Positions 640 through 22,390 of a DNA stretch of 64,000 bases are shown here, piece after piece. Position 1 is the first letter of the stretch. Each line of letters opens with the position of its first letter. The notes beneath the pieces were generated by a model. The model worked only from the letters and a program-made list of their open reading frames with translations, did no database searches and had not been told where the DNA came from. Source of the DNA: an uncultured Porphyromonadaceae bacterium (GTDB lineage: Bacteria > Bacteroidota > Bacteroidia > Bacteroidales > Muribaculaceae); contig CANSRU010000006.1 in the NCBI GenBank assembly GCA_947649495.1, forward strand, positions 1 to 64,000, read 5' to 3'. The position numbers and the translations under genes are program-made.

Positions 640-668
640 TGCTGAAAAATGTCTTTGATAATTATTGA

Positions 669-1862
669 TTATTGTTCAGGAAGAGAAACTGACACCCAGT
701 TGAGCTTGCCGGGCTCGCTCGACTTTCCGGGATAAGTAGCCGGTGTCTGGATGTCGTAGCCATTGGCATAGTCATGTACAAGCGAGCCATCGCCCTCGTT
801 GAACTTCCAGTAGCCCACCAAACCGTCAGCATCCGATTCCACACGGTAGAAGTGGTTACGTTCAAGAAGTTCGGCAGGAGTAAGAATTCTGTTCCATACA
901 CGCACTTCCGAAATTTTGCCCATGAAGTCACGATCAGTATCGTAAGCATATCCTACGTAGCATGCACGGTCGCTCGATTTTACATTCCAGTTCACCGCAC
1001 GACGATAACCTACGTTCTGGGTATCGCCCTTCTTGACACCGTTGAAGTAAACATCAACATTGCCCGTAGACGAATCAAATGTAAGAGTTACGAATGTCCA
1101 CTTGTTGGTATCCAGTTTCCAAGCCGCGTCTGTGGCATTGCCGCTGCCGGTTGCAAGCTGAATCTGATTCGGTGGAACGCTGGCGTCGCCTATACGTACA
1201 AGGAATGTTCCTTCTATACCCATCAAGGTTGCCAGACCACCCTGACCACGGAATTCCGACGGATTGATGAGTGCCTCGAAAGTAAGCTGCCTCAGGTTGC
1301 CGAGTTCCGGACACTGACCTTCATTAACAAAGGTGAGACAAGTCTTGGTCAGGTCACCCACCACATTGATAAGAGCCGCACCGCGGAACACATAATATGT
1401 GGTGGCACTGCTGCTGAGAGCGGGCACGGTCGAACTGATTATCGAGACCGGCAGCACATATACGAACTGGTCGTCAAGCGAATTCAGTCCGGTAAATTTA
1501 ACTGACACACGGCTTGATTCTACGGTGTTGGCCGTTATTACGGCTACAGGATCGGGTATACTGTAATTCTCCGCAGGCAATATAATGGGTTCGCCACCAT
1601 ATATACCCTTGTAGTCCACAAGCTTACTTTCGTCCACGCCGTAGGTCACCATCACATCGTGGGTCTCAGGCTGAGCAATACGCACGCCCAGTGTACGGGT
1701 CATTTCATCGGCGCGGCCGTCGAGTGCAGTCACCACCAGATGGTCGATAGCGGTGTCATAGACCTTGTTATTGTCCGATACGTTCTTGTAATCGTCCTGA
1801 CACGCAGTGAAAGCGCCGGCCGAGACGAGAAGCGTAGCCGCGATATATAATGATTTTTTCAT
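669..1862 (-). CDS. DUF1735 and LamG-domain surface lipoprotein
   Basis: The start is placed at 1862 (MKKSLYIAATLLVSAGAFTAC), which gives a clean lipoprotein signal; an ATG four codons upstream is also open. The N-terminal half has DUF1735 character ('HDVMVTYGVDESKLVDY', 'VYVLPVSI'). Roughly residues 165-390 form a LamG/concanavalin-like jelly roll, with the typical 'WTFVTLTFDSSTGNVDVYFNGV' and 'MGKISEVRVWNRILTPAEL' strings. Proteins of this build act as glycan-binding surface proteins that hand substrate to the SusCD complex. It sits between the GH18-like gene and another DUF1735 gene, with short gaps on both sides, so it is almost certainly in the SusC-led operon. The ligand is inferred from context to be an N-acetylglucosamine-containing host glycan. 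Confidence 0.85.
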   Translation of the reverse strand: MKKSLYIAATLLVSAGAFTACQDDYKNVSDNNKVYDTAIDHLVVTALDGRADEMTRTLGVRIAQPETHDVMVTYGVDESKLVDYKGIYGGEPIILPAENYSIPDPVAVITANTVESSRVSVKFTGLNSLDDQFVYVLPVSIISSTVPALSSSATTYYVFRGAALINVVGDLTKTCLTFVNEGQCPELGNLRQLTFEALINPSEFRGQGGLATLMGIEGTFLVRIGDASVPPNQIQLATGSGNATDAAWKLDTNKWTFVTLTFDSSTGNVDVYFNGVKKGDTQNVGYRRAVNWNVKSSDRACYVGYAYDTDRDFMGKISEVRVWNRILTPAELLERNHFYRVESDADGLVGYWKFNEGDGSLVHDYANGYDIQTPATYPGKSSEPGKLNWVSVSLPEQ

Positions 1863-8138: not shown

Positions 8139-8430
8139 GCACAGAGAGTGCCAGAATACCCTCTCCCCTAACACCACCCTCCCTTAAACCAACAATTAGA
8201 CTTATCGGCCTAATTTGACCAATTATCCTCACAATCCGGCAGGAGGGGCGGTGGCTTTCCAGCCACCGCAAAAAGAGGGCAAGAATGCCCTCTCCCCTAA
8301 CATCACCCTCCCCTAAACCAACAATTAGACCAATCGGCCTAATTTGACCAATTACCCTCACAATCCGGCAGGAGGAGCGGTGGCTTTCCAGCCACCGCAC
8401 AGAGAGGGCAAGAAAGCCCTCTCCCCTAAC
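8139..8430. repeat. 129-base tandem repeat, two full copies plus a partial one, built of hairpins
   Basis: Two direct copies start at 8161 and 8290, and a third start is visible at 8419; a partial copy precedes 8161. Each unit contains a 9-base-pair hairpin (GCGGTGGCT-TTCC-AGCCACCGC, first copy 8248-8269), a second hairpin (AGAGGGC-AAGAAT-GCCCTCT, 8274-8293), and a spacer with 'ATCGGCCTAATTTGACC'. The two hairpins and the spacer recur in inverted orientation in the arrays at 18907, 20370 and 21832. The unit length is a multiple of three, which creates a spurious repetitive reading frame on the minus strand. Confidence 0.85.
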
Positions 8431-8444
8431 ATCCATATCGGCCC

Positions 8445-8549
8445 AATGGTCGCAGACCATTAAACATGTTTAGGCCCGTCATGGGGCACCGCCCCTTGGC
8501 GGGTGTGTGGACACGATATACCGGGCATCGTCGAAGATGATGAATTTGC
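8445..8549 (+). repeat. Three-hairpin intergenic element, copy 1 of 7
   Basis: Three hairpins in order: AATGGTC-GCA-GACCATT (8445-8461); CCCGTCATGGGGC-ACC-GCCCCTTGGCGGG (8475-8503, one mismatch and one wobble); and CATCGTC-GAA-GATGATG (8526-8542). The same series occurs twice, facing each other, in each of the arrays at 18907, 20370 and 21832. Stem sequences are kept or change in pairs while the three-base loops vary. It lies between the susC leader and the purB terminator and encodes nothing evident. Confidence 0.8.
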
Positions 8550-8582
8550 CATCCCCCCCGCAATCCACTAACAACCGCACAA

Positions 8583-8613
8583 TAAAAAAGAGCGGTGAAT
8601 TAATCCACCGCTC
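8583..8613 (-). terminator. Intrinsic terminator of purB
   Basis: Read on the minus strand, an eight-base-pair stem (GAGCGGTG / CACCGCTC, 8590-8613) with an eight-base loop is followed directly by six T (8589-8584). It lies 26 bases past the purB stop codon. Confidence 0.9.
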
Positions 8614-8638
8614 CATCAATATCGTTGCGAACCGAAAA

Positions 8639-9982
8639 TCATCTTCCGGTATAAGTGTGAGGCGACAGACGGCGCAACTCCGCCTTAACCTCATCGCTCA
8701 CCTCGAGTGTATCAATAAATGCCGATATACTCTCGGCAGTCACCGTGGAGTTGACACGCGTGAGCTGCTTTAAAGTTTCGTAAGGATGCGGATAACCCTC
8801 ACGGCGCAATATGGTCTGAATACCCTCAGCCACCACATTCCACATCCGGTCAAGATCGGCCGAGATGGCATCTTCGTTCAGAATCAACTTGTTCAAGCCC
8901 TTGAGCGTGCTTGCCACAGCGATAAGCATGTGTCCCATAGGCACACCCACATTGCGGAGCACAGTCGAATCCGTAAGGTCGCGCTGCAGTCGCGACACAG
9001 GAAGCTTCATGGCCAGATGTCCCAGTATGGCATTCGCCATGCCGAGATTACCCTCCGAATTCTCAAAATCTATTGGATTGACCTTGTGGGGCATAGCCGA
9101 CGAACCGACCTCGCCCGCCTTGATGCGCTGCTTGAAATAGTCCATCGATATATACTGCCACACATCGCGGTCAAGGTCTATCATAATGGTATTGATACGG
9201 CGCATTGCGTCAAACAGCGCCGCCAGATTGTCGTAGTTGGATATCTGCGTGGTATATTGCTCACGCTCTATGCCGAGGCTGCCGCTCAGGAACTTCGAGG
9301 CAAATGCCACCCAGTCCACATCGGGATAAGCCACCGAATGCGCGTTGAAATTACCCGTGGCACCGCCAAACTTACCGCTCACCGGCACAGCCTTAAGAGC
9401 CTCAATCTGAGTGCGAAGACGGTACACGAACACCATCAGCTCCTTGCCCAGACGGGTAGGCGACGCCGGCTGTCCGTGAGTCTTGGCAAGCATAGGCACC
9501 TCGGCCCATTCGCCGGCGAGAGCCTCAAGCTTGTCCACCATCTCGCCGAGCGCCGGCAGATACACCTCGGCAACAGCCTCGCGCACCGACATAGGCACCG
9601 ATGTGTTGTTGATATCCTGCGAAGTCAGCCCGAAATGTATAAACTCCTTATACTTCTCAAGCCCCATGGCATCAAACTGCTCCTTCAGAAAATATTCCAC
9701 AGCTTTCACATCGTGATTGGTCACCGCCTCAATTTCCTTTATACGTTCGGCATCGGCTATGGAGAAATCGCGGTATATGGCGCGGAGACGTCCGAAACAG
9801 TCAGCCGGGACGCCTGCAAGCTGCGGCAGCGGAAGCTCACAAAGAGCTATGAAATACTCCACCTCCACCCTCACGCGGTAGCGTATCAGGGCATATTCGG
9901 AAAAATACATGTCGAGTGATTCACACTTGCCGCGGTAGCGGCCATCGATAGGCGAGATTGCCGTAAGCTGTGAGAGTTGCAT
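8639..9982 (-). CDS. purB: Adenylosuccinate lyase
   Basis: A 447-residue fumarase/aspartase-superfamily enzyme. It carries out two purine steps: cleavage of SAICAR to AICAR and of adenylosuccinate to AMP, each releasing fumarate. Diagnostic strings are 'SPIDGRYRGKCESL' at the N-terminus, 'HFGLTSQDINNTS', 'KTHGQPASPTRLGKE', and the superfamily signature loop 'GSSAMPHKVNPIDFEN'. The length is normal for the long bacterial PurB type. The gene stands alone, with a TATCTTTG box upstream and its own terminator. purC, an earlier step of the same pathway, is in the window at 15067 but not in the same operon. Confidence 0.97.
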   Translation of the reverse strand: MQLSQLTAISPIDGRYRGKCESLDMYFSEYALIRYRVRVEVEYFIALCELPLPQLAGVPADCFGRLRAIYRDFSIADAERIKEIEAVTNHDVKAVEYFLKEQFDAMGLEKYKEFIHFGLTSQDINNTSVPMSVREAVAEVYLPALGEMVDKLEALAGEWAEVPMLAKTHGQPASPTRLGKELMVFVYRLRTQIEALKAVPVSGKFGGATGNFNAHSVAYPDVDWVAFASKFLSGSLGIEREQYTTQISNYDNLAALFDAMRRINTIMIDLDRDVWQYISMDYFKQRIKAGEVGSSAMPHKVNPIDFENSEGNLGMANAILGHLAMKLPVSRLQRDLTDSTVLRNVGVPMGHMLIAVASTLKGLNKLILNEDAISADLDRMWNVVAEGIQTILRREGYPHPYETLKQLTRVNSTVTAESISAFIDTLEVSDEVKAELRRLSPHTYTGR

Positions 9983-10028
9983 ATCTATATATAATAAGGT
10001 GTAGGGGTAAAACCTGCGTTACAGAGTG

Positions 10029-10107
10029 CAAAGATACAACCATTTGCACCCACACCGAAACTTTATGCCACAAATTTGTTATTATACCGGATATTTGCGT
10101 AAATTTG
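10029..10107. promoter_or_regulatory. Divergent promoters for purB (-) and the pseudouridine synthase gene (+)
   Basis: Minus strand: TATCTTTG at 10036-10029, about 47 bases above the purB start. Plus strand: TTTG (10075-10078), 21 bases, then TAAATTTG (10100-10107), an excellent match to the Bacteroidetes -33/-7 form. The plus transcript would start near 10114 and carry a ~125-base leader before 10239. The 256-base gap holds no other feature I can see. Confidence 0.6.
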
Positions 10108-10238
10108 CATACGATTTTACGCATAGTCTCCAAATATTCACTATTATAACATTTTACAATCACGCGCATAGCCGTGAGGCATGCACATACCGATTTAATT
10201 TACACCTCAACGAAACAAAACTTTAGGACTGAACGATT

Positions 10239-11750
10239 ATGGACAGCAACGAGAAAAAGAGCAAGCGCCCGCGCATTGGCGAACAGCGCATGGCCGCATC
10301 CGAGACACATTCCACTGAAAACACCGGAGCCGAATACAGCTCCGAACAGACTTCCCGCCCATACAACAGTGACCGTCAGGGCGGTTACAACAGGGAACGT
10401 CAGTACAGCTCCGGCCCACGAAACAATTACGGTTCCCGTCAGGGTGGTTACCGTAACTACAACAACGACCGTCAGGGTGGCTACCGTCCACGCTACGAGA
10501 ACACCAATGCCGACGACACCACATCGACAGCACAGACCGAAGGCGCCGAACCGGCAGCCGAAGGCAGCACCTACCGTCAGCATCAGGGCTACCGCAACTA
10601 CGACAACAATCGTCAGAGCGGCGGATACAACAACCACCGCCAGGGCGGCTACGGCAACAACCGTTACAACAATGACCGCCAGGGCAGCTACAGCAACAAC
10701 CGCTACAACAACGACCGTCAGGGCAGCTACAGCAACAACCGCTACAACAACGACCGCCAGGGCAGCTACGGCAACAACCGCTACAACAACGACCGCCAGG
10801 GCAGCTACAGCAACAACCGTTACAACAACGACCGCCAGGGCAACAGCTATGGCAACCGCCAGGGTGGTTACAACAATAACAACCGCTACGGCAACAACCG
10901 TCAGGGTGGCTACAACAACCGCCCCGGACGTCCGCAGATGCGCCAGAACGAATTCGGCATGCCCCACGGCGGAAAGAGCTTCACTCCCCGCCCCAAACGC
11001 GTGATATACGAAGAGGCCATCCCCGATCCCAACGAACAGATACGTCTCAACAAATTCATGGCCAACGCCGGAATCTGCTCGCGCCGCGAAGCCGACGAAT
11101 ACATCCAGCAGGGACTTGTCAAGGTCAACGGAGTGGTGGTGACCGAACTCGGAACCAAGATAACCCACAACGACACTGTGGAATACGACGAAAAGCTCGT
11201 TGCACTGGAGCGCAAATGCTACATCCTGCTCAACAAGCCCAAGGATTGCGTGACCACATCCGACGACCCCAACGGACGCCTCACCGTGATGGATCTAGTG
11301 AAAAACGCATGCGAGGAACGCATCTACCCCGTAGGCCGCCTCGACCGCAACACCACCGGCGTGCTCCTGCTCACCAACGACGGCGATCTCGCATCCAAGC
11401 TCACCCACCCCAAGTATGTCAAGAAAAAGATATACCACGTGTGGACCGACAAGGACATTACCGAAGACGACATGCAGCGCATTGCCGACGGCATAGAACT
11501 TGAGGACGGCCCCATACATGCCGACGCCATAAGCTATGCCACCGACACCGACCGCAATCAGGCCGGCATCGAGATACACTCCGGACGCAACCGCATCGTG
11601 CGCCGCATCTTTGAAAGCCTCGGTTACCACGTAACCAAACTCGACCGCGTTTATTTCGCAGGCCTCACCAAGAAGAACCTGCCCCGCGGACGCTGGCGTT
11701 ACCTCACCCAGGAAGAGGTCAACTTCCTTAAAATGGGCTCATTCGAATAA
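10239..11750 (+). CDS. rluB-like: RluB-type 23S rRNA pseudouridine synthase with long repetitive N-terminal extension
   Basis: The C-terminal ~240 residues form a standard RsuA/RluB-family enzyme: S4 RNA-binding domain (about 267-315, '[31 protein letters not shown]') and catalytic domain with '[17 protein letters not shown]', where D369 is the catalytic Asp. It isomerises uridine to pseudouridine in rRNA; the exact target base is inferred only from family. The first ~255 residues are low complexity, rich in Arg, Asn, Tyr, Gly and Gln, with five 13-residue repeats ([13 protein letters not shown], residues 142-206), probably disordered and RNA-binding. asnS follows after 20 bases, so the two are likely co-transcribed. 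Frames overlapping the repeat region on both strands are artefacts of its composition. Confidence 0.92.
10662..10856 (+). repeat. 39-base coding tandem repeat, five copies
   Basis: Five consecutive 39-base units encode [13 protein letters not shown]-like 13-mers within the N-terminal extension of the pseudouridine synthase. The copies differ mainly at synonymous positions and at Ser/Gly in one residue. The last copy is altered (GNSYGN). In-frame gain or loss of units would change only the length of the disordered tail. Confidence 0.85.
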
Positions 11751-11770
11751 CCAAAAGTAATTTCGCCATA

Positions 11771-13159
11771 ATGAAACGTACAAAAATCATTGACATATTC
11801 TCGCCCGAACTCATCGGCACGGAAGTCAGCGTGATGGGATGGGTAAGAACCCGCCGCGGTAACAAACACGTGCAGTTCCTCGCACTCAACGACGGCTCCA
11901 CCATCAAAAACCTCCAGGTAGTGGTGGACATGTCCAAATTCACCGACGACGACCTGCGTGGCATAACCACCGGTGCCAGTGTCCATGTAACCGGACGCCT
12001 CGTCGAATCAATGGGCAAGGGCCAGACCTGCGAAGTGCAGGCCGACACCCTGCACCTCTTCGGCACAGCCGACCCCGAGACATATCCCCTTCAGAAAAAA
12101 GGACACACCCTCGAGTTCCTGCGCGAGAAAGCCCATCTGCGCCCACGCACCAACACATTCGGAGCTATACTCCGCGTGCGCAGCACATTGGCTTTCGCCA
12201 TCCACAAGTTCTTCAACGAACGCGGATTCTTCTACCTCAACACTCCTTTGATCACCGCCTCCGACTGCGAAGGCGCAGGAGCCATGTTCCAGGTAACCAC
12301 CCTCGACCTCAACAACCTCCCCCGCACCGAAGAGGGCACCGTCGACTTCTCGGCCGACTTCTTCGGCAAGCCCACCGCGCTTACCGTGAGCGGACAGCTT
12401 GAAGGCGAGCTCGGAGCAACCGCCCTCGGAGCAATATACACATTCGGCCCCACATTCCGCGCCGAAAATTCCAATACGCCCCGTCACCTGTCGGAGTTCT
12501 GGATGATAGAGCCTGAAATGGCATTCTACGACATTACCGACAACATGGACCTAGCCGAGGACTTCATAAAATACTGCATCAACTACGCCCTCGACCACTG
12601 CCGCGACGACATCGACTTCCTCGCGCAGATGTACGATCCCGAGCTTGTGGACCGTCTGAAATTTGTGGTTGAGAACAGCTTCGTGCGCCTGAGCTACACC
12701 GAAGGTGTGAAGATTCTCGAGGAATCGGGACGCAAATTCGAATTCCCCGTCTACTGGGGTGCCGATCTCCAGAGCGAGCATGAACGCTACCTTGTGGAGG
12801 AGCACTTCAAGAAACCCGTGATTCTCACCGACTACCCCAAGGACATCAAGGCTTTCTACATGAAGCTCAACGACGACGGCCGCACTGTACGCGCCATGGA
12901 CGTCCTCTTCCCCAAAATCGGCGAAATCATCGGTGGCTCGGAACGCGAAGCCGACTACGACAAGCTTCTCGGCCGCATCGAGGAGATGAATATCCCCATG
13001 AAAGACATGTGGTGGTATCTCGACACCCGCCGCTACGGCACCGTGCCCCACGCAGGTTTCGGTCTCGGCTTCGAGCGCCTCGTGCTCTTCGTAACCGGCA
13101 TGACCAACATCCGCGACGTGATTCCCTTCCCCCGCACCCCCAACAACGCCGAATTCTAA
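11771..13159 (+). CDS. asnS: Asparaginyl-tRNA synthetase
   Basis: A 462-residue class II aminoacyl-tRNA synthetase charging tRNA-Asn with asparagine. The N-terminal OB-fold anticodon-binding domain is visible ('[25 protein letters not shown]'). The catalytic core has motif 2 ('[25 protein letters not shown]') and motif 3 ('[29 protein letters not shown]'). The form '[19 protein letters not shown]' and the GGSERE segment separate AsnRS from AspRS. The length is normal. It follows the pseudouridine synthase gene by 20 bases and ends at a strong terminator. Confidence 0.97.
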
Positions 13160-13185
13160 CATCCGGTCACCATACCGACATATAA

Positions 13186-13222
13186 CAAAGCACCCGCGTG
13201 ATAAAACGCGGGTGCTTTGTTT
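13186..13222. terminator. Bidirectional intrinsic terminator after asnS
   Basis: A 12-base-pair perfect stem (AAAGCACCCGCG / CGCGGGTGCTTT) with an eight-base loop, followed by GTTTC on the plus strand. It lies between the convergent asnS and the minus-strand secreted protein gene ending at 13247, and can serve both. Confidence 0.85.
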
Positions 13223-13246
13223 CACTGATAGTAAGCCTTGTATCGG

Positions 13247-13885
13247 TCAGACCTCGTCGGTCTCCTCGCTTGTAGTGTCGCGCTCCAGCACCTTGTAGCC
13301 GAATTGCTTGCACTCCATCTTACCCTTGTTGCCAACCACGAATCCAAACTGCGGATTCTTTATCACCGCATTTTTCATAGTGCACATAGGCAGACCGTTG
13401 ACAAAGAATGTCAGCTTACCTTTCTTCATATACATGGCCAGGCTGAAATCCTTCGACTTAGCTTTGTACATACCTTTGCGGAGCACCGAAACCTTGCCGT
13501 CGGCCACCGACAGCACCTGATAGCCCTTCTTGGTGAGCACCATAGCCTTGTAAGTCACATCGTTCTCCACATCGTAGATAATACCGAACGGCTTCTTATC
13601 GTCGACCGACTCGGGCTTCATGTCGAATATCACCACAAAATCATTGTCCTCAGTGTTGAACGGCATCTCGCAATAAGTGGCACACAAACTGTCGTCCTTC
13701 TTCGATTCAAGCTCCAGACCCTGCTTCTTCAGCATAGCCTTGCTATCCTTTTCGTCATACTGCATCCACTCGTACTCAGGATCGGCCATCGAAACCATCT
13801 CCACCTCCGGAAGTTCGTCGGTTACACCCTGCGCGCCGCATGTCAAACCCCATACGGCCATCAACATAAAAAATATCTTTTTCAT
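13247..13885 (-). CDS. Secreted protein of unknown function
   Basis: The start at 13885 (MKKIFFMLMAVWGLTCGAQG) gives a normal signal peptide; an open frame continues nine codons upstream. The mature protein is about 190 residues. The central part ('FVVIFDMKPESVDDKKPFGIIYDVEN', 'LTFFVNGLPMCTMKNAVIKNPQFGFVVGNKG') has the alternating strand pattern of a jelly-roll or LamG-like sandwich, which would suit binding, but I do not recognise the family. Cysteines at 'DSLCATYC' and 'PMCTM', 'MECKQF' may form disulphides. The gene begins 33 bases after the end of the next minus-strand gene (13919-14608), so the two may be one transcript. Confidence 0.75.
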   Translation of the reverse strand: MKKIFFMLMAVWGLTCGAQGVTDELPEVEMVSMADPEYEWMQYDEKDSKAMLKKQGLELESKKDDSLCATYCEMPFNTEDNDFVVIFDMKPESVDDKKPFGIIYDVENDVTYKAMVLTKKGYQVLSVADGKVSVLRKGMYKAKSKDFSLAMYMKKGKLTFFVNGLPMCTMKNAVIKNPQFGFVVGNKGKMECKQFGYKVLERDTTSEETDEV

Positions 13886-13918
13886 AGTAACTCTCTTTTT
13901 AAATAAGCACATACAGCA

Positions 13919-14608
13919 TTATTCGCCGCCACCTACAGAAGTCTGCAGCTCCTCAATCATTGGCTCATACTTCTTCAGAACACGCGGATAGGACTCGTAG
14001 CAATCCGAACCCTTGCAATCAAGGTCGTCGTTAATCTCCGACACTATGCGTGCACGGTAAGTAACCACATCCTCGCCTGTAAATGAAATCCTCACCTCCA
14101 GACGTGTGCGCACCCGCTGATGAGCGAATTTCGTAACCGCCCACTGTGTCTTGATCCAGCCGGCAGCCTTGTCACGCACCTCTATATTACTGAAATAGCG
14201 TGTGGCTATGCTCATAAGGCGCTTCCACACCATATCCTCGCTCATACCCCGGCGGCATGTGATGTCAAACCATTGGTTGGCAAGCTCCATGCCATTCTCG
14301 CTTCCGGTAGAAGCCTTCATGGCCTCATCCTCGTTCAGACGGTACACCACAGTGTTGTTGGGATTGGATTTCAACAGACGGTAACGGCGGCCTATGTAAC
14401 CGTCGGCCACCACCGTCACGATGTAAAATTCATTACCGCCGTCAAACTTCACCTTGTACGAACCCTCGCCCACAGCCTGACCATCGATAAAGATAGTGGC
14501 CGTTTCGGGAATAGTCTTGACAGTGATTTTCTTAGCTCCCCATGCGGAGCAACATAACGATGTGAGCAACATGGCCACAACCGAAAGCAACAACTTTTTC
14601 CTAAACAT
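13919..14608 (-). CDS. Secreted PEGA-like domain protein, unknown function
   Basis: A 229-residue exported protein (signal about 1-24, 'VVAMLLTSLCCSAWGA'). Residues about 26-95 resemble a PEGA domain ('ITVKTIPETATIFIDGQAVGEGSYKVKF', ending 'YIGRRYRLLKSNPNNTVVYRL'), a small surface-layer-type beta module. The C-terminal half ('MVWKRLMSIATRYFSNIEVRDKAAGWIKTQW', 'VRTRLEVRISFTGEDVVTYRARIVSEIND') resembles domains that follow PEGA in Bacteroidetes envelope proteins. Function is unknown. The leader region above it contains the hairpin at 14681-14755. It is probably transcribed with the following gene. Confidence 0.78.
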   Translation of the reverse strand: MFRKKLLLSVVAMLLTSLCCSAWGAKKITVKTIPETATIFIDGQAVGEGSYKVKFDGGNEFYIVTVVADGYIGRRYRLLKSNPNNTVVYRLNEDEAMKASTGSENGMELANQWFDITCRRGMSEDMVWKRLMSIATRYFSNIEVRDKAAGWIKTQWAVTKFAHQRVRTRLEVRISFTGEDVVTYRARIVSEINDDLDCKGSDCYESYPRVLKKYEPMIEELQTSVGGGE

Positions 14609-14680
14609 TGCTTATTGACTTTTAAGGCTCACGATTTGTCCCCGGTACGTGAATTAAACAAACTGTATGGATACGAAAAA

Positions 14681-14755
14681 GCGTGGGACAATGTTCCGAT
14701 TATCAATTCCAGGCATCGCCAAACGCCTCGTACACGATAACAGTCCACCCCACGC
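14681..14755 (-). ncRNA. Candidate structured leader or small RNA with terminator-like end
   Basis: Read on the minus strand, GCGTGGG (14755-14749) pairs with CCCACGC (14687-14681) and five T follow immediately (14680-14676). Inside, TTATC/GATAA and AGGC/GCCT form further stems, giving a rod with bulges. It lies about 68 bases before the start of the PEGA-like gene. This could be an attenuator or the 3' end of a small RNA. A similar arrangement with the same GCGTG base and T run is at 62856-62944. I do not recognise the RNA family. Confidence 0.4.
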
Positions 14756-14886
14756 AAGCATGCTATAGCAGCCCGCCATGGGCACCATAAAATCAAGCAA
14801 GCATGAAGCGTCTTTCTGACTGCATTATCCGGTGTACTTTGAAATTTGGCGATTTCGGAATTCAGGATAAAGCAAAAAACGCTTTC

Positions 14887-14976
14887 AAAAAAATATGTCT
14901 GACACCACCTGCCGGAACTCCATCCGTACCCCGGGCGTCAAGCGCAAATTTACTCATTCCAACCCACATACACAAA
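14887..14976 (-). promoter_or_regulatory. Minus-strand promoter followed at once by a hairpin and T7 run
   Basis: Minus strand: TTTG (14976-14973), 20 bases, TAAATTTG (14952-14945), an excellent Bacteroidetes promoter. Directly downstream a hairpin (TGACGCC 14940-14934 with GGTGTCA 14906-14900, one wobble, inner CCGG/CCGG) is followed by seven T (14893-14887). This would give a transcript of only ~50 bases unless read through, in which case it would run towards the PEGA-like gene at 14608. Confidence 0.45.
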
Positions 14977-14997
14977 TACTTGACCACTCATTTAAAA

Positions 14998-15029
14998 TTT
15001 GTGGCTGTGGGAAATTATAGCTAACTTCG
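14998..15029 (+). promoter_or_regulatory. Promoter of purC-menG
   Basis: TTTG (14998-15001), 20 bases, TAACTTCG (15022-15029), one mismatch from TAnnTTTG. A start near 15036 gives a ~30-base leader before purC. It is back to back with the minus-strand promoter at 14945-14976. Confidence 0.5.
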
Positions 15030-15066
15030 CATAGAAATTTCTACGAACTTAACACCTCCACAGATT

Positions 15067-16020
15067 ATGGCTAAAGCATTGGTTAATACCGACTTCAATT
15101 TCCCCGGTCAGACCGGAGTGTATCACGGAAAAGTACGCGACGTATATTCTATAGGCACCGACACGCTGGTGATGATAGCCACCGACCGCATATCGGCCTT
15201 CGACGTAATCCTGCCCAAGGGCATTCCTTACAAGGGACAGGTGCTTAACGAGATTGCAACATACTTCCTCGATTCCACCGCCGACATCGTGCCCAACTGG
15301 AAACTCGCCACTCCCGACCCGATGGTGGCCGTAGGGCTCCGCTGCGAGGGCTTCCGCGTCGAAATGATAATACGCGGCTACCTTACAGGAAGCGCATGGC
15401 GCGAATATCAGGCCGGATGCCGCGAGATATGCGGAGTGAAACTTCCCGAAGGCATGCGCGAGAACGAGCGGTTCCCCGAACCCATAATCACCCCCACCAC
15501 AAAAGCCGATGCCGGCCACGACGAGAACATTTCGCGTGAGGAAATCATAGCCCAGGGCATAGTTAGCGCCGAGGACTACGCAGTGATGGAGGACTACACC
15601 CGCAAGCTCTTCGAGCGCGGCACCAAGATGGCAGCCGAGAAAGGGCTGATACTTGTGGACACCAAATACGAGTTCGGCAAACACAACGGCAAGGTGTATC
15701 TGATAGACGAGATACACACCCCCGACTCATCGCGCTACTTCTACGCCGACGGCTATCAGGAGCGTTTCGAGCAGGGCTTGCCCCAGCGTCAGCTCTCCAA
15801 GGAATTCGTTCGCCAGTGGCTCATTGACCACGGCTTCATGGGCAAGGAGGGTCAGCAGGTGCCCGAGATGACCGACGATTTTATCCAATCGGTATCCGAC
15901 CGCTACATAGAGCTTTACGAACATGTCACCGGACAGCCGTTTGTCAAGGCCGACGAGGCTAATCTCACCGACCGCATAGCCGTAAACGTACTCGACTGCC
16001 TCCAGAACCTCAACGCCTGA
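15067..16020 (+). CDS. purC: Phosphoribosylaminoimidazole-succinocarboxamide synthase (SAICAR synthetase)
   Basis: A 317-residue PurC. It joins CAIR with aspartate using ATP to give SAICAR in purine synthesis. Recognisable strings: '[46 protein letters not shown]', '[25 protein letters not shown]', '[11 protein letters not shown]' and '[15 protein letters not shown]'. The length matches the longer Bacteroidetes/yeast-like form, not the ~240-residue enterobacterial one. Its stop codon overlaps the start codon of menG by one base (TGATG), so the two are translationally coupled. Confidence 0.97.
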
Positions 16021-16763
16021 TGGACTGCGAAAGCATCAACCCCTATAGAGCCGACAGCCGGAGCAAGTCGCAACAGGTAAAGGAGATGTTCGACAACATC
16101 GCCCCCGCCTACGACTTCATGAACCGCGCCATGACATTCGGCATAGACCGCATCTGGCGCCGCAAGGCTGTGGATATGCTACGCCGCCGGCCCCATGGCC
16201 GCATTCTGGATGTGGCCACCGGCACCGGCGATCTCGCCATGCTGCTCGCGCGCCGCACCGATGCCACGAACATCTCCGGCATAGACCTTTCGGAGGGGAT
16301 GATAGCCATTGGCAAAGAAAAGATAGCCCGGGCAGGCCTTGACCGGCGCATTACACTTACCGCCGGCGACTGCCTGTCATTGCCATTTGCCGACGAGACG
16401 TTCGATGCCGTCACCGTGGCCTACGGAGTGCGCAACTTCGAAAACCTCACAAAGGGTTACAGCGAGATGCTGCGTGTGCTCCGCCGGGGTGGAAGCATAA
16501 CCGTAATCGAGCTGTCGACTCCCGCCTCTCCGCTCATACGTCCGCTTTACAGGCTCTACACTCGCCATATCATTCCGGCCGTGGGGCGTATGATATCAAA
16601 GGATGTGCGCGCCTACTCATACCTGCCGGAGAGCATTGCGGCCGTTCCGCAACGCTCGGAAATGACAGCACTGATGACTCAGGCCGGATTTACCGAGGCT
16701 GCCTACCGGTCGCTCACATTCGGCACGTGCATGATATACACGGCCATCAAACCTACTGAATGA
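16020..16763 (+). CDS. menG: Demethylmenaquinone methyltransferase (UbiE/MenG)
   Basis: A 247-residue SAM-dependent methyltransferase that performs the last step of menaquinone synthesis. SAM-binding motif I is 'ILDVATGTGDLAMLLARR', motif II region 'ADETFDAVTVAYGVRNFEN', and the family signature 'VRNFENLTKGYSEMLRVLRRGGSI' is present. The C-terminal 'DVRAYSYLPESIAAVPQRSEMTALMTQAGF' is typical of UbiE. The gene overlaps purC by one base. menA, two steps earlier or the prenylation step, is at 59535. Together they indicate a menaquinone-using, Bacteroidales-type respiration. Confidence 0.96.
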   Translation: MDCESINPYRADSRSKSQQVKEMFDNIAPAYDFMNRAMTFGIDRIWRRKAVDMLRRRPHGRILDVATGTGDLAMLLARRTDATNISGIDLSEGMIAIGKEKIARAGLDRRITLTAGDCLSLPFADETFDAVTVAYGVRNFENLTKGYSEMLRVLRRGGSITVIELSTPASPLIRPLYRLYTRHIIPAVGRMISKDVRAYSYLPESIAAVPQRSEMTALMTQAGFTEAAYRSLTFGTCMIYTAIKPTE

Positions 16764-16795
16764 ACAAACATAACTAACACATATCAAAAAACATC

Positions 16796-18835
16796 ATGAA
16801 TCTTTCAAAATTAGCTCTCACAATGGCACTTACGCTTACTGCAACGGCAGGAGTCTCGGCCGAGGAGCACCTCAAGAGTCTTGATGCCTCGCAGATTGAC
16901 AACTCAATCCCTGCAGGTACCGATTTCTACCGTCATGTCAATAAAAAGTGGCAGGACGCCAACCCCCTTACCGCCGAACATGCACGCTACGGCAAGTTCA
17001 ACGTTCTTTCCGACACCAGCGAGGCACGCGTAAAGGAGATAGTGCTCAATCTTGCATCCACCAATCCTGAGCCCGGCACCGTAGCCTTCAAGGTATCGAC
17101 CATCTACAATCAGGCAATGGACTCCGCACGCCGCAATGCCGAAGGCGCAGCTCCCATACAGGCCGATCTCAAGAAAATCGACAATACCACCCACGATGGC
17201 ATGGAAGACCTGTTCATGTGGATGCACGCCAACTATGCAAGCCCGTTCTTCGGAGCCGGCCCCCAGGAAGACCTTGCCAACTCGCAGGTCTATGCCATGT
17301 ATGTGAGCGGTGGTGGCCTCGGCCTCGGTGACCGCGACTACTATCTGCAGAACGACAAACGCAACAAGGAAGTGCGAGAGGCTTACCAGAAGCTCATCGT
17401 AAAGCAGATGATGAACGCCGGCTTCAAGAAGAAGGATGCCAACCGCATTATGAAAAATGTGATGAAGATAGAAACAGCTCTCGCCGACTCCACCTGGACA
17501 CGCGAACAGAGCCGTAACATCCCGGCCATGTACAATCCCCGCTCGTTCGCGCAGCTCAAGGAGATGTACCCTGCCATAAACTGGGACCGTTTCTTCATCG
17601 AGACAATGGGCATCGAATCGCCCGAACAGGTAATTGTGACCGAGATAAACACCGTGAAGCAGGCCAACGACCTGATAGCCTCGCTCACCGACCGCGAGAT
17701 AAAGGACTATTACCTTTGGAAATACGTGGCACAGGCAGCAGGCAAGCTGAGCGACGATTTCGCCAATGCCTCGTTTGAGTTCAACAAAGTGATGAGCGGC
17801 GTGCAGCAGCAGCGTCCCCGCTGGAAACGCGCTCTCGGAGCCACCGAAGGTGCCATGGGCGAGGCTGTGGGTCAGCTTTACGTAGAGAAATATTTCCCCC
17901 AGTCGTCGAAAGACTATATGATTGGCCTGGTGGAAAACCTGCGCACAGCTCTCGGCAAACACATACTTCACCTTGAGTGGATGAGCGACGACACCAAGCT
18001 CAACGCCCTCAAGAAGCTCAATGCCTTCACTGTAAAGATAGGCTATCCCGATAAGTGGAAAGACTACTCCACAATGGAAATCGACCCCAAACTCTCTTAC
18101 TATGAAAACATGCACAATGTGGGCATGTGGCACCAGAAAGAGTACTATAAGAAATGGGGCAAACCTGTGGACCGCACCGAATGGGGCATGACACCTCAAA
18201 CCGTAAATGCTTACTACAATCCGCTTGCCAACGAAATTGTGTTTCCCGCGGCCATACTTCAAGCTCCGTTCTTCGACCCGCAGTCGTCGGATGCCGAGAA
18301 CTACGGCGGTATAGGCGTTGTGATTGGTCACGAAATGACCCACGGCTTTGACGACCAGGGACGTAACTTCGACGCCGAAGGTAATATGGTAAACTGGTGG
18401 CAGCCTGAAGACCTTGCCAAGTTCTCAGAAATGACCAAAGGCCTCGGAGCCCAGTTTGATGCTGTGGAGGTGCTTCCCGGGCTTCATGCCAACGGCACCT
18501 ACACTATGGGCGAGAACATCGCCGACCAAGGTGGTCTGCGCGTGGCAATGACCGCATTCCTCGACTCGCAGAAGAAAAAGGGTGTTGATATCGCCACCGA
18601 GAAAATCGAAGGCTTCGACCCGATACAGGTGTTCTACATGAACTATGCCAACCTTTGGGGACAGAACATACGCGATGAAGAGATTCGCTCTCTTACCACC
18701 GGCGATGTTCACTCGCTTGGCGAGAACCGCGTTAATGTTACCCTGCGCAACCTCGAACCCTTCTTCAAAGCGTTCAACATCACCGAAGGTCAGCCCATGT
18801 TCCGTCCGGTGGAAGAACGTGTGATAATCTGGTAA
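16796..18835 (+). CDS. pepO: M13-family zinc metallopeptidase (PepO/neprilysin-like)
   Basis: A 679-residue secreted endopeptidase. A signal peptide covers about residues 1-22. The N-terminal M13 domain starts 'LDASQIDNSIPAGTDFYRHVNKKWQDANPLT'. The catalytic zinc site is 'VIGHEMTHGFDDQG' (HExxH), with the third ligand in 'GENIADQGGL' (ExxxD). The C-terminus 'RVNVTLRNLEPFFKAFNITEGQPMFRP...VIIW' ends in the Trp-containing tail usual for the family. It lacks the N-terminal membrane anchor of animal neprilysins and should act on oligopeptides in the periplasm. It starts 32 bases after menG, possibly in the same transcript, and ends at a strong terminator. Confidence 0.96.
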   Translation: MNLSKLALTMALTLTATAGVSAEEHLKSLDASQIDNSIPAGTDFYRHVNKKWQDANPLTAEHARYGKFNVLSDTSEARVKEIVLNLASTNPEPGTVAFKVSTIYNQAMDSARRNAEGAAPIQADLKKIDNTTHDGMEDLFMWMHANYASPFFGAGPQEDLANSQVYAMYVSGGGLGLGDRDYYLQNDKRNKEVREAYQKLIVKQMMNAGFKKKDANRIMKNVMKIETALADSTWTREQSRNIPAMYNPRSFAQLKEMYPAINWDRFFIETMGIESPEQVIVTEINTVKQANDLIASLTDREIKDYYLWKYVAQAAGKLSDDFANASFEFNKVMSGVQQQRPRWKRALGATEGAMGEAVGQLYVEKYFPQSSKDYMIGLVENLRTALGKHILHLEWMSDDTKLNALKKLNAFTVKIGYPDKWKDYSTMEIDPKLSYYENMHNVGMWHQKEYYKKWGKPVDRTEWGMTPQTVNAYYNPLANEIVFPAAILQAPFFDPQSSDAENYGGIGVVIGHEMTHGFDDQGRNFDAEGNMVNWWQPEDLAKFSEMTKGLGAQFDAVEVLPGLHANGTYTMGENIADQGGLRVAMTAFLDSQKKKGVDIATEKIEGFDPIQVFYMNYANLWGQNIRDEEIRSLTTGDVHSLGENRVNVTLRNLEPFFKAFNITEGQPMFRPVEERVIIW

Positions 18836-18857
18836 TCAACCGATAACCACATACCCA

Positions 18858-18896
18858 TAAGCGCTGGAGCCGCATGGTTCCGGCGCTTATTTTTAT
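18858..18896 (+). terminator. Intrinsic terminator after the M13 peptidase gene
   Basis: ATAAGCGC pairs with GCGCTTAT, extended inward by TGGAGCC/GGTTCCG around a GCAT loop (18858-18890), followed by TTTTAT. It lies 22 bases past the stop codon. Confidence 0.88.
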
Positions 18897-18906
18897 GAGA
18901 GAGGTG

Positions 18907-19404
18907 GAGATGTGGCGTACCCAGGGGCACGCACATATCTGAGGATGCCGTGACCGCGCACTGCGTACGCGGCTACAGTCCGGCTTCCGCAAGCGGAAGC
19001 ACACACAATTGAGACGTATTAGGCAAATTAGGCCGATGGGTCAAATGGGCGGCGCTTTAGGAGAGAGGGCTTTCTTGCCCTCTTTTTTGCGGTGGCTAGA
19101 AAGCCACCGCCCCTAACGTGCGCCGGATGCCCGCGGTGGACAGCATTTGCAGATGTTTTGCGGCAGCTGTTGGCAAAGGAATTACGATGGTCGGAGACCA
19201 TCTGACATGCGTAGACCCGTCATGGAGCGAAGCTCCTTGGCGGGGACGTGGGAATGTTTTTGACAATCATCGTCGGTGACGATGAACGCCCCGAGAAACA
19301 AATTCATCATCTTCGACGATGCTCCGCACATGACGCGCCAACACACCCGCCAAGGGGCTCCGCCCCATGACGGGCCTAAATATCTTTAATGGTCTTCGAC
19401 CATT
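18907..19404. repeat. Hairpin array B (first of three near-identical ~500-base arrays)
   Basis: No gene is seen here. Hairpins in order: GCTTCCGC-AA-GCGGAAGC (18983-19000); AGAGGGC-TTTCTT-GCCCTCT followed by T (19064-19087); GCGGTGGCT-AGAA-AGCCACCGC (19089-19110); then two three-hairpin elements facing each other, the left one from GATGGTC-GGA-GACCATC (19186) to the ATCGTC/GACGAT hairpin near 19287, and the right one inverted, ending AATGGTC-TTC-GACCATT (19388-19404). The array lies between the peptidase terminator and the end of the first duplicated lipoprotein gene. Confidence 0.85.
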
Positions 19405-19451
19405 GTTGGACAGTGTGGGAGAATATAGATTTTGTGGATGCGTGCAGCAGA

Positions 19452-20222
19452 TTAGCGGGCGCTTTCGGTAAACGTCACTTCGGGTACATATAAATCCTCG
19501 CGGAACTCGCGGTGGTCATAAATCTTCTCATCGCCATCGTAGCATTCCAACAATACATACCGATAAAATCCGTCCGGGCCATGGGTCACACTGTAAGTAC
19601 GATAGTCCGGATGCCAACCAAACAGCGGGCCGATGCCCTCAACCCAATAATCGTAGGGCACATCGAACTCTTCATTGACCCCGCGGCTTATCTTCACAAC
19701 TCGCCGCGTTTTACCCTGAAGGACTATTGTACCACGGCTTTCCACCTGAAATCCAAAAATTGATATTCTATCCGTCTGAGGATTCATATCGTAGGAAAGC
19801 CCCCACAATTCTCGTTGCCGGTATGTTCCATCGTCCTTGTAGTCTTTCCATTCCCAGAATTTATACACCTTGCCATCCTCCTCCCTCAACACTTCGGGAA
19901 TGCCATACTCATGTCCGTCAGCATAACGCACACGAATGACTTTAGCATAATTACCTCCGGCATATGTTCCGCCGTTAACAATCTTATCCCAGACCGTTGT
20001 GGTGGTCTTTAAGTCACCATGGGATGGTTCGAAAGTCTCTTCTATCACCCACCTCTTACCTTCAGTAAGTACAGGACGTAATTCTTCGGTCAATGGCTCG
20101 GGCGGCAATGGCGGTTCTGTAGTTTTATCATTATCACACGCCACAAACAGCATCATGGCCGATATTGCTACCAACACTGAATATAACGATTTTTGTTTCG
20201 AGCAATAGGTCTTATTTTTCAT
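19452..20222 (-). CDS. Lipoprotein of unknown function, copy 1 of a tandem pair
   Basis: I do not recognise the family. The start is set at 20222 (MKNKTYCSKQKSLYSVL...LFVAC), giving a clean lipoprotein signal with Cys about 28; the frame stays open 32 codons further upstream but that part looks non-coding. The mature protein starts with a Pro-rich linker (TEPPLPPEPLTEELRP) and then a beta-rich domain with many Trp, Tyr and charged residues ('WVIEETFEPSH', 'KVYKFWEWKDYKDDGTYRQRELWGLSYD', 'DYWVEGIGPLFGWHPDYRTYSV'). The sister gene at 20914 differs at clustered sites in the 'EPSHGDLK', 'SRGVNEEF' and 'VTHGPDG' segments. It is framed by hairpin arrays on both sides. Confidence 0.8.
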   Translation of the reverse strand: MKNKTYCSKQKSLYSVLVAISAMMLFVACDNDKTTEPPLPPEPLTEELRPVLTEGKRWVIEETFEPSHGDLKTTTTVWDKIVNGGTYAGGNYAKVIRVRYADGHEYGIPEVLREEDGKVYKFWEWKDYKDDGTYRQRELWGLSYDMNPQTDRISIFGFQVESRGTIVLQGKTRRVVKISRGVNEEFDVPYDYWVEGIGPLFGWHPDYRTYSVTHGPDGFYRYVLLECYDGDEKIYDHREFREDLYVPEVTFTESAR

Positions 20223-20369
20223 GGTAGATGTGTATTTATGGTTTTGTTTTGCAAGATAGTGCATATAATGCTTAAAAACAAGTTTTAGCATTATTTTACT
20301 GTCGCTGAATTTATACATTTATTTCCGTGAACAGTCGATAAATATAGCAATATCGTTACGTCCGACGAC

Positions 20370-20866
20370 GAGATGTGGCGTACCCAGGGGCACGCACATA
20401 TCTGAGGATGCTGTGACCGCGCACTACGTACGCGGCTACAGTCTGGCTTCCGCAAGCGGAAGCGCACACAATTGAGGCGTATTATGCAAATTAGGCCGAT
20501 TGGTTAAATGAGCGGCACTTTAGGAGAGAGGGCTTTCCAGCCCTCTTTTTTGCGGCGGCTGGAAAGCCACCGCCCCTAACATGCGCCGGATGCCCGCGGT
20601 GGACAGCATTTGCGGATATTTGCGGTGGCTGTTGGCAAAGGAATTACGATGGTCGGAGACCATCTGACATGCGTAGACCCGTCATGGAGCGAAGCTCCTT
20701 GGCGGGGACGTGGGAATGTTTTTGACAATCATCGTCGGTGACGATGAACGCCCCGAGAAACAAATTCATCATCTTCGACGATGCTCCGCACATGACGCGC
20801 CAACACACCCGCCAAGGGGCTCCGCCCCATGACGGGCCTAAATATCTTTAATGGTCTTCGACCATT
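20370..20866. repeat. Hairpin array C
   Basis: The same order of hairpins as array B, offset by about 1,462 bases: left three-hairpin element from 20648 and inverted right element ending AATGGTC-TTC-GACCATT at 20850-20866. Differences from array B include GCCGCC-type changes in the AGCCACCGC hairpin (GCGGCGGCTGGAAAGCCACCGC). The stretch 20223-20369 between gene and array is the upstream region of copy 1, with a TGCTAAAA.../...TTTTAAGCA hairpin at about 20268-20290 and no clear consensus promoter. Confidence 0.85.
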
Positions 20867-20913
20867 GTTGGACAGAGTGGGAGAATATAGATTTTGTGGA
20901 TGCGCGCAAAGGA

Positions 20914-21684
20914 TTAGCGGTCGCTTTCGGTAAACGTAACTTCGGGCACGTATAAATACTCGCTAAACTCGCGGTGGTCGTAAATCTTCTCATCGCCATC
21001 GTAGCATTCCAACAATACATACCGATAAAATCCATCCGGACTATGTTCAATACTATACGTCCGATAGTCCGGATGCCAACCGAACAATTGACCGATGCCC
21101 TCAACCCAATAATCGTAGGGCACATCATAATTCTCATAATTGATTCCACGTCTTATCTTTACAACTCGCCGCGTTTTACCCTGAAGGACTATTGTACCAC
21201 GGCTTTCCACCTGAAAGCCCCCAATTGATATTCTATCCGTCTGAGGATTCATATCGTAGGAAAGCCCCCACAATTCACGTTGCCGGTATGTTCCATCGCC
21301 CTTGTAGTCTTTCCATTCCCAGAATTTGTACACCTTGCCATCCTCCTCCCTCAACACTTCGGGGATGCCGTACTCATGTCCGTCAGCATAACGCACACGA
21401 ATAACTTTAGCATAATTACCTCCGGCATATGTTCCGCCGTTAACAATCTTGTCCCAGACCGTTGTGGTGGTTGATAAATCTCGATATCGAATGTAAGTCT
21501 CTTCAATCACCCACCTCTTACCTTCAGTAAGGACAGGACGTAATTCTTCGGTCAACGGCTCGGGCGGCAATGGCGGTTCAGTAGTTTTATCATTATCGCA
21601 CGCCACAAACAACATCATGGCCGATATTGCCGCCAACACTAAATATAATGACCTCAATTTCGAGAAGTTAGTTTCACTTTTCAT
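20914..21684 (-). CDS. Lipoprotein of unknown function, copy 2 of a tandem pair
   Basis: A close paralogue of the gene at 19452-20222, of equal overall length, with start at 21684 (MKSETNFSKLRSLYLVLAAISAMMLFVAC). The Pro-rich linker and most of the domain are identical. Differences cluster: 'YIRYRDLS' for 'FEPSHGDLK', 'IGGF' for 'IFGF', 'RRGINYENYD' for 'SRGVNEEFD', and 'SIEHSPDG' for 'SVTHGPDG'. Clustered replacement in exposed-looking segments suggests divergence after duplication, perhaps under selection or by gene conversion. Function is unknown; it should sit on the outer or inner membrane as a lipoprotein. Confidence 0.8.
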   Translation of the reverse strand: MKSETNFSKLRSLYLVLAAISAMMLFVACDNDKTTEPPLPPEPLTEELRPVLTEGKRWVIEETYIRYRDLSTTTTVWDKIVNGGTYAGGNYAKVIRVRYADGHEYGIPEVLREEDGKVYKFWEWKDYKGDGTYRQRELWGLSYDMNPQTDRISIGGFQVESRGTIVLQGKTRRVVKIRRGINYENYDVPYDYWVEGIGQLFGWHPDYRTYSIEHSPDGFYRYVLLECYDGDEKIYDHREFSEYLYVPEVTFTESDR

Positions 21685-21831
21685 GGTAAATGTGTATTTA
21701 TGGTTTTGTTTTGCAAGATAGTGTATATAATGCTTAAAAACAAATTTTAGCATTATTTTATTGTCGCTGAATTTATACATTTATTTCCGTGAATAGTCGA
21801 TGAATATAGCAATATCGTTACGTCTGACGAC

Positions 21832-22343
21832 GAGATGTGGCGTACCCAAGGGCACGCAGTTTTTTTGTTTGACCGCGACCGCATACCGCGCACTACGTAC
21901 GCGGCTACAATCCGGCTTCCGCAAGCGGAAGCTCACAATTGAGACGTATTAGGCAAATTAGGCCGATGGGTCTAATATTAGTGATGAAATGGGCGGCGTG
22001 TTAGGAGAGAGGGCTTTCCAGCCCTCTCTTTTTGCGGTGGCAGGAAAGCCACCGCCCCTAACCTAAACCGGATGGCTGCGGGGACAGCTTTGTGAATATT
22101 TGCGGCCGTTGGCAAAGGAATTACGATGGTCAGAGACCATCTGACATGTGTAGACCCGTCATGGAGCGAAGCTCCTTGGCGGGGACATGGGAATGTTTTT
22201 GACAATCATCGTCGGTGACGATGAACGCCCCGAGAAACAAATTCATCATCTTCGACGATGCTCCGCACATGACGCGCCAACACACCCGCCAAGGGGCTCC
22301 GCCCCATGACGGGTCTAAACATCTTTAATGGTCTTCGACCATT
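21832..22343. repeat. Hairpin array D, without an attached lipoprotein gene
   Basis: The third copy of the array. It is slightly diverged at its left end (a GTTTTTTTGTTTGACC segment replaces part of the B/C sequence) and after 22343. The three-hairpin elements are GATGGTC-AGA-GACCATC (22125-22141) at the left and AATGGTC-TTC-GACCATT (22327-22343) at the right. The first loop is AGA here and GGA in arrays B and C. Confidence 0.85.
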
Positions 22344-22390
22344 GGGTTAATGTTTTTGTGGATATGCGAGGCCGATGGGGATAATCAGGT

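Follow-up and report, generated by a model that had tools for sequence, protein, structure and literature searches.

A three-hairpin, REP-like intergenic repeat in a Muribaculaceae genome and its probable origin from the ends of a Y1 transposase locus

The 64,000-nt stretch analysed here (the window; positions 1 to 64,000 of contig CANSRU010000006.1, assembly GCA_947649495.1, from an uncultured Porphyromonadaceae bacterium assigned to Muribaculaceae) carries seven copies of a repeat unit of ~105 nt with three hairpins, at the places and with the hairpin sequences given by an earlier inspection of the letters alone (hereafter the sequence-only reading); a search for the core pattern on both strands likewise counted seven. 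Each unit consists of a small hairpin H1 ([AG]ATGGTC-nnn-GACCAT[TC] in the window), a 13-nt spacer, a 29-nt hairpin H2 (CCCGTCA-T-GGnGC-nnn-GCnCC-T-TGGCGGG, where all window copies show a T.T mismatch and a T.G wobble), a second spacer of ~22 nt and a hairpin H3. Two subtypes are distinguished by the end of the first spacer, which is TTTAGG, CTTAGG or (once) TTTAGA in alpha units and CGTAGA or TGTAGA in beta units, so that H2 is preceded by a foot of TTAG plus one base in the former and GTAG plus one base in the latter.

One alpha unit stands singly at 8444..8548 on the + strand (H1 8445-8461, foot TTTAG, H2 8475-8503, H3 8526-8542). The remaining six lie in three arrays, in each of which a beta unit on the + strand faces an alpha unit on the − strand, the pairs being 19185(+)/19405(-), 20647(+)/20867(-) and 22124(+)/22344(-). 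These units occupy 19185..19290 (beta; H1 19186-19202, foot GTAG, H2 19216-19244, H3 19267-19285) and 19299..19405 (alpha; H1 19388-19404, H2 19346-19374, H3 19305-19321) in array A, 20647..20752 (beta) and 20761..20867 (alpha) in array B, and 22124..22230 (beta) and 22238..22344 (alpha) in array C, the H3-side ends of the three beta units being approximate. The sequence-only reading had begun the first array at 18907; the facing units are present as it described, and 18907-19180 consists of other repeats. Each array is a copy of the same segment, and two were duplicated in tandem along with a 288-aa gene; the direct repeats, at 1462 and 1477 nt spacing, are 98% and 84% identical to the first copy. 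The seven units are therefore not independent evidence and represent about three lineages, namely the single unit, the left (beta) array arm and the right (alpha) array arm.

The unit is not confined to the window. The genome as a whole (2.45 Mb in 34 contigs, 99.98% complete) was covered by DNA-level searches together with a covariance model, R1, built from an alignment of 16 own-genome rows (A1). Full units number 18, spread over six contigs and 11 intergenic regions: the window has seven, C17 four, C2 three, C30 two, and C9 and C15 one apiece. To these are added two divergent units on C14, with GTTGGTC-GAA-GACCAAC as H1, and a partial unit on C2. None of the 18 full units lies inside an open reading frame (ORF; mechanically called, at least 100 aa); the unit at 8444 shares 17 bases with a 114-aa ORF, and one of the divergent C14 units is flagged within an ORF. 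Facing alpha-beta pairs recur, with three in the window, two on C17 and, on C2, one full pair and one with a partial beta unit, and other repeat families lie in or beside the same arrays, forming mosaics as in REPINs and bacterial interspersed mosaic elements (BIMEs).

Unit boundaries were examined by local alignment of the eleven alpha sites, each taken with at most 400 nt of the sequence to its left. Alignments of the single unit at 8444 with the ten other sites all began within −3..+1 of its first base, and the homology ran over 0..103-111 at the seven sites that have H3 and ended at 71 at the three that lack it, where another center follows H2. Other pairs that aligned at the unit without a shared array started at −8 to +3, and longer or off-unit alignments came from shared arrays or repeats (C17 with arrays A and C, C15 with C2, the two C30 sites, and units of a second repeat family described below). 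By these alignments the element behaves as a discrete amplified unit, and its description in the sequence-only reading as a dispersed element is borne out.

The stems of the two helices aligned are closely kept. In A1, 98.9% of cells were paired, and two base pairs, one per hairpin, change on both sides in nine cells, a number of cells that 0/500 shuffles reached; the covariation score was likewise reached by 0/500, whereas two such pairs were reached by 350/500. The loops of H2 vary (ACC, GGA, GAA, GTG, ATG, ATC, GCA) over nearly constant stems. Among relatives we used a MAFFT alignment (A5) of 28 units, 27 of them distinct; A4, which was fitted to the model and contains reverse-strand matches, was excluded. 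In A5, 97.6% of cells pair, and both partners have changed at four pairs, in 19 cells (0/500 shuffles for cells, 14/500 for pairs), with pairing dropping to 36-56% at every sliding of the partner. Covariation is thus stronger among relatives than within the own genome, and the earlier statement that stems are kept or change in pairs is upheld for their conservation and for some compensatory changes, the own-genome covariation being thin at two pairs. The T.T mismatch of H2 is kept in 16/16 own rows and 26/28 relatives' units; in the other two (L098:718-782 and L103:438-503) mismatch and wobble are both replaced by standard pairs.

Repetitive extragenic palindromic (REP) sequences are associated with transposases of the Y1/HuH type, and a linked enzyme of this sort had been anticipated. 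No Y1_Tnp match was found in the own assembly by a search that was positive in 5/14 control genomes, including E. coli, and a protein search revealed no remnant of a relative's Y1 protein in the own genome (best E 0.27). Y1_Tnp matches were present in 61/101 genomes and in 18/33 other genomes of the same genus. At the DNA level the unit was found in none of 100 relatives, and the exact H2 pattern in none of the genome- and viral-contig collections searched, from which the records nearest the own genome may be excluded. Diverged units in relatives were reached by the covariance model only: at E <= 0.1 in 34 genus genomes, with no more than 150 candidates scored in each, R1 matched at least 19 times in G005, at least seven times in G013, at least five times in G006 and at least once in G011, weak single matches in G010, G012 and G015 (E 0.01-0.07) not being counted. 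A covariance model of the kind that the sequence-only reading had called for thus finds units genome-wide and in four other genomes of the genus.

In three of these four, the units adjoin a Y1 gene. Four of the five G006 matches surround the gene (contig C8), with units that bracket it facing inward, and in G013 (C134) units at 122-186(+) and 771-836(-) bracket a Y1 gene at 269-712(+), again facing inward; both genomes therefore show the REPtron arrangement, a Y1 gene between inverted repeat copies. Units also lie on both sides of the gene in G011 (C40), where the nearest downstream one points away. The anticipated link to a transposase accordingly holds in relatives and not in the own genome. 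Among 35 genus Y1 genes, 31 carry the motif YxxxQxxHH of subclass 1.2, one of these lacking [ND]HxH and one being truncated at 114 aa, and the bracketed proteins are 147-153 aa long. The same motif occurs in 80/80 further related loci, the best 80 of 206 relatives, to give 111 loci in all. All three proteins tested passed the NCBIfam cut-off for IS200/IS605 and fell short of the one for REP_Tyr_transpos; relatives in the PDB are IS200-type transposases with weak E-values (0.003-0.008), and an AlphaFold model had a mean pLDDT (predicted local distance difference test) of 88. By their motif, length and HuH signature, the bracketed proteins fit TnpA-Y1 subclass 1.2.

The related loci span Muribaculaceae, other Bacteroidota, Verrucomicrobia, Lentisphaerae, Planctomycetes, Acidobacteria and others. 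After identical proteins were merged (111 to 101) and loci with flanks shorter than 150 nt dropped, 96 remained, 29 from the genus and 67 from elsewhere. Inverted flanks at z > 6 were found in 78/96 (24/29 genus, 54/67 others), with z > 10 in 70/96 and z <= 3 in 14/96, as against 0/42 window ORFs. Two of 12 loci entered in the controls yielded no ORF. Because related units occur in different genomes, a null formed by cross-pairing flanks (maximum 124, exceeded by 19/78 loci; 95th percentile 53.5) was dropped as the main control in favour of shuffles, window ORFs and other Y1 genes. Transposase identity correlated with upstream flank similarity (rho 0.35, 0/200 permutations), genome kinship not being removed.

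The layout itself also recurs. The 192 flanks contain 448 perfect triloop hairpins against 64.5 expected from dinucleotide shuffles (maximum 73), with C-G closing 336/448; GNA loops number 252 against 4.2 expected, and their TNC complements 59. In DNA, loops of the C-GNA-G type have unusual stability. A strict descriptor, requiring a C-G-closed H1 triloop, a TAR foot, H2 and H3, matched at least one side of 46/96 loci when read inward and of 7/96 when reversed, with no match in 10 mononucleotide and 5 dinucleotide shuffles; the inward matches comprised 34 upstream, 30 downstream and 18 on both sides. Swapping the foot for nine other motifs lowered the yield to 3-18/96, and the feet in matched flanks were ATAG (19), TTAA (15), ATAA (10), GTAG (8), GTAA (7) and TTAG (5). 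Moreover, when 102 units of 53 loci (z >= 8, span <= 190 nt) were folded, at least three hairpins formed in 77/102 compared to 297/1020 shuffles, and a TAR foot preceded the middle hairpin in 33/90 against about 5 by chance.

Taken together, the unit is most probably an orphan, non-autonomous, REP-like mobile repeat derived from the end of a subclass-1.2 REPtron with three-hairpin ends. In the working that we propose, the source would be the terminal unit of a REPtron whose enzyme, a TnpA-Y1 of subclass 1.2 (an HuH nuclease acting on single-stranded DNA, with the catalytic motif YIxNQxxHH), is encoded between two ends that face each other around the gene, each comprising a small triloop hairpin H1, a spacer with a terminal TAR foot, the longer imperfect H2, a spacer and a small H3. 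The enzyme would read H2 and the foot on one strand of single-stranded DNA, as TnpA-REP reads GTAG and a hairpin, and would cut and rejoin beside the unit, so that single units or facing alpha-beta pairs (compare REPINs) are copied into intergenic DNA. H2 with its TAR foot would then form the recognised core, H1 and H3 marking strand and limits. The copies in the own genome would be orphans deprived of the transposase gene and now spreading by segmental duplication only, as in the arrays. The strand bias of the GNA loops fits recognition of a single strand, and an assembly that lacks the gene is consistent with an orphan family. Transposition, like recognition by the enzyme, the cutting step and the loss of the gene, is what we infer from comparing sequences.

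Several points weigh against this interpretation. Neither a transposition event nor an excision product nor an empty site was seen. The own genome is broken into 34 contigs, and assembly readily drops genes that sit between repeats, so that a transposase may exist that the assembly lacks. In G005, the most unit-rich relative, the contig of the Y1 gene has no R1 match, and the survey of genus Y1 genes covers 35 of 44 matches. Among the 96 loci, 18 fail z > 6 and 50 have no strict descriptor match on either side, and of four further order-level subclass-1.2 loci two had inverted flanks, with one GNA triloop in all. The descriptor catches only 4/10 own-genome units tried and is thus conservative. 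Inverted flanks are not exclusive to the subclass: one of eight Y1 genes of other motif passes z > 6, the five order-level loci and a G025 gene all failing (0/6, highest 5.9) and two class-2-like genes of G002 scoring 20.8 and 5.9. Finally, dispersal varies: in favour of the interpretation, the unit of the Y1 gene of Epilithonimonas caeni DSM 17710 has at least 31 genome matches, many partial or overlapping, with 40 of 49 candidates scored, whereas Pontiella sulfatireligans has its two flanking units only.

The alternative that survives best, which we regard as improbable, is that the units are transcribed 3' ends of messages, kept as terminators or stabilisers of mRNA and copied by ordinary duplication. 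Such a role would accord with their intergenic position, with stems that are kept while loops vary, and with the fact that four of six terminator-like sites in the arrays coincide with alpha units (with H3 in three cases, with H1 in one); those six sites, however, compare with 3.5 (sd 2.0) expected, and ordinary duplication predicts neither that homology stops at the unit ends elsewhere nor that units bracket a transposase gene in relatives. Membership of a known RNA family was rejected, since no Rfam family reached its gathering score in the window, where one miRNA match lay below threshold. A mobile repeat may nonetheless have acquired an RNA role later.

Still less probable is that the facing alpha-beta pairs are miniature inverted-repeat transposable elements of a DDE-type insertion sequence, about 220-240 nt long with terminal inverted repeats of ~60 nt and moved by an ordinary transposase. 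Pairs of alpha, center and beta do exist with two different centers, and on a Chitinophagaceae contig (L182, L183) a block of 780 bp comprising the Y1 gene and both units is present in two places, 98.5% identical, its edges having short inverted ends with apparent 8-9 nt direct repeats outside, as if the block were borne by a DDE-type element. Against this stand single units that have H3 but no beta counterpart (at 8444, C30 and C9), and the relatives' homologous units that adjoin Y1 genes. Quasipalindrome correction, in which template switching during replication copies one arm onto the other with neither selection nor transposase, would account for the paired stem changes and for the two relatives' units (2/28) that swapped mismatch and wobble for standard pairs, and may act on single copies, but as a general explanation it is very unlikely given the retention of mismatch and wobble in all own rows (and of the T.T in nearly all relatives' units), the favouring of one strand by 252 GNA triloops to 59 complements, and its silence on dispersal and the Y1-gene link.

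Returning to a REPtron-derived mobile repeat, we hold with moderate confidence a broader proposal: that subclass-1.2 enzymes make up a REPtron type that is widespread and present in several phyla; that their substrate is a TAR-footed hairpin with a C-GNA-G triloop hairpin on either side, these two marking the strand and the limits of the unit; that the ends of such loci seed dispersed repeats; and that lineages which lose the enzyme, as here, keep orphan families in intergenic arrays. For the intergenic arrays of this gut Muribaculaceae genome, an origin as orphaned mobile repeats is a possible explanation.

Other repeats accompany the units. A second family, also footed by GTAG and similar in its three-hairpin layout, has 12 matches in the own genome and none, at the DNA level, in 33 other genomes of the genus. 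Its unit in array A (18905..19006, − strand) reads GCTTCCGC..GCGGAAGC, a GTAG foot with CCGCG..CGCGG, and GCGTGCCC..GGGTACGC, a layout read from the sequence, and DNA-level matches place further units at 20370..20469 (−) in array B and 21832..21937 (−) in array C. A GTAG-footed palindrome, TAGGGACGCGNCNNGNCGCGTC, has 36 exact copies, all on contigs C2, C14, C15 and C30 (for example L035:589-610), in two main variants that are often face to face. Close to the single unit, at 8204-8433, a 101-nt sequence is directly repeated at a spacing of 129 nt; it includes the hairpins GGTGGC..GCCACC and AGAGGGC..GCCCTCT, and parts of it recur in the arrays. The tandem duplication of the 288-aa gene and its downstream array extends over 18888-21831, and contig C17 (L033) carries a 298-aa ORF with a similar end plus two arrays. 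Lastly, 39-nt tandem coding repeats at 10587-10925 lie inside a 503-aa ORF whose C-terminal part looks pseudouridine synthase-like by eye.

REPs, REPtrons and their TnpA-REP (RAYT) transposases, with the GTAG superfamily, are treated in Di Nocera 2013 (PMC3733652) and Nunvar 2010 (PMC2817692); the latter places RAYTs that satisfy the definition of Nunvar et al. in gammaproteobacteria only, and TnpA-REP acts on single-stranded REP through the GTAG motif and the hairpin irregularities of one strand (PMC8266576). Like these, the unit has a short imperfect hairpin with a 5' TAG-containing foot and is intergenic, dispersed, found in facing pairs and, in relatives, placed so as to bracket a Y1 gene. 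It differs in having three hairpins, in its length of ~105 nt rather than 20-40 nt, in feet of ATAG, TTAA, ATAA, GTAG, GTAA and TTAG rather than GT[AG]G alone, and in a presumed cognate transposase that belongs to subclass 1.2 and not to class 2. H2 by itself (29 nt, with a mismatch, intergenic) fits the REP size class, although 18 copies are few and the mobile unit would be the whole 105 nt. The facing units and mosaic arrays of several repeat families resemble REPINs and BIMEs, from which unit composition and presumed enzyme class set them apart (PMC6006769).

TIRtrons, in which a Y1 gene (TIRYT) lies between long inverted repeats that are not canonical REPs, are likewise close; their repeats are dispersed in some species, some are partly self-complementary and only some carry GGGGWSAS (PMC3733652). 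This motif is not enriched here (19/192 flanks compared to 17.2 in shuffles), and the constant three-hairpin layout sets our loci apart from TIRtrons as that text describes them. Subclass 1.2, with its motif Y---Q--HH and length of 148 aa, has 'no' entered under REP in the table of Quentin 2018 (PMC6006769); the bracketed proteins share its motif and about its length and differ in having flanking repeats, so that the unit offers a candidate substrate, testable with oligonucleotides, for a transposase subclass reported there without them. Subclass 2.6 of Bacteroidetes also has atypical flanking structures and differs by the motif YIH[QN]NP (PMC6006769). We found no prior description of a three-hairpin REP, or of a REP of subclass 1.2, in the open-access papers searched. 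The sequence-only reading was right to liken the element to REP and BIME with a different layout, as its dispersal, facing pairs and REPtron arrangement in relatives attest; that reading knew of no described family of this form, yet the element is not outside all known kinds and fits the REP/REPtron/TIRtron kind, with three-hairpin ends. We therefore file the element as REP-like, a three-hairpin version of that layout, differing from known REPs by its three hairpins, its other feet and its other transposase subclass.

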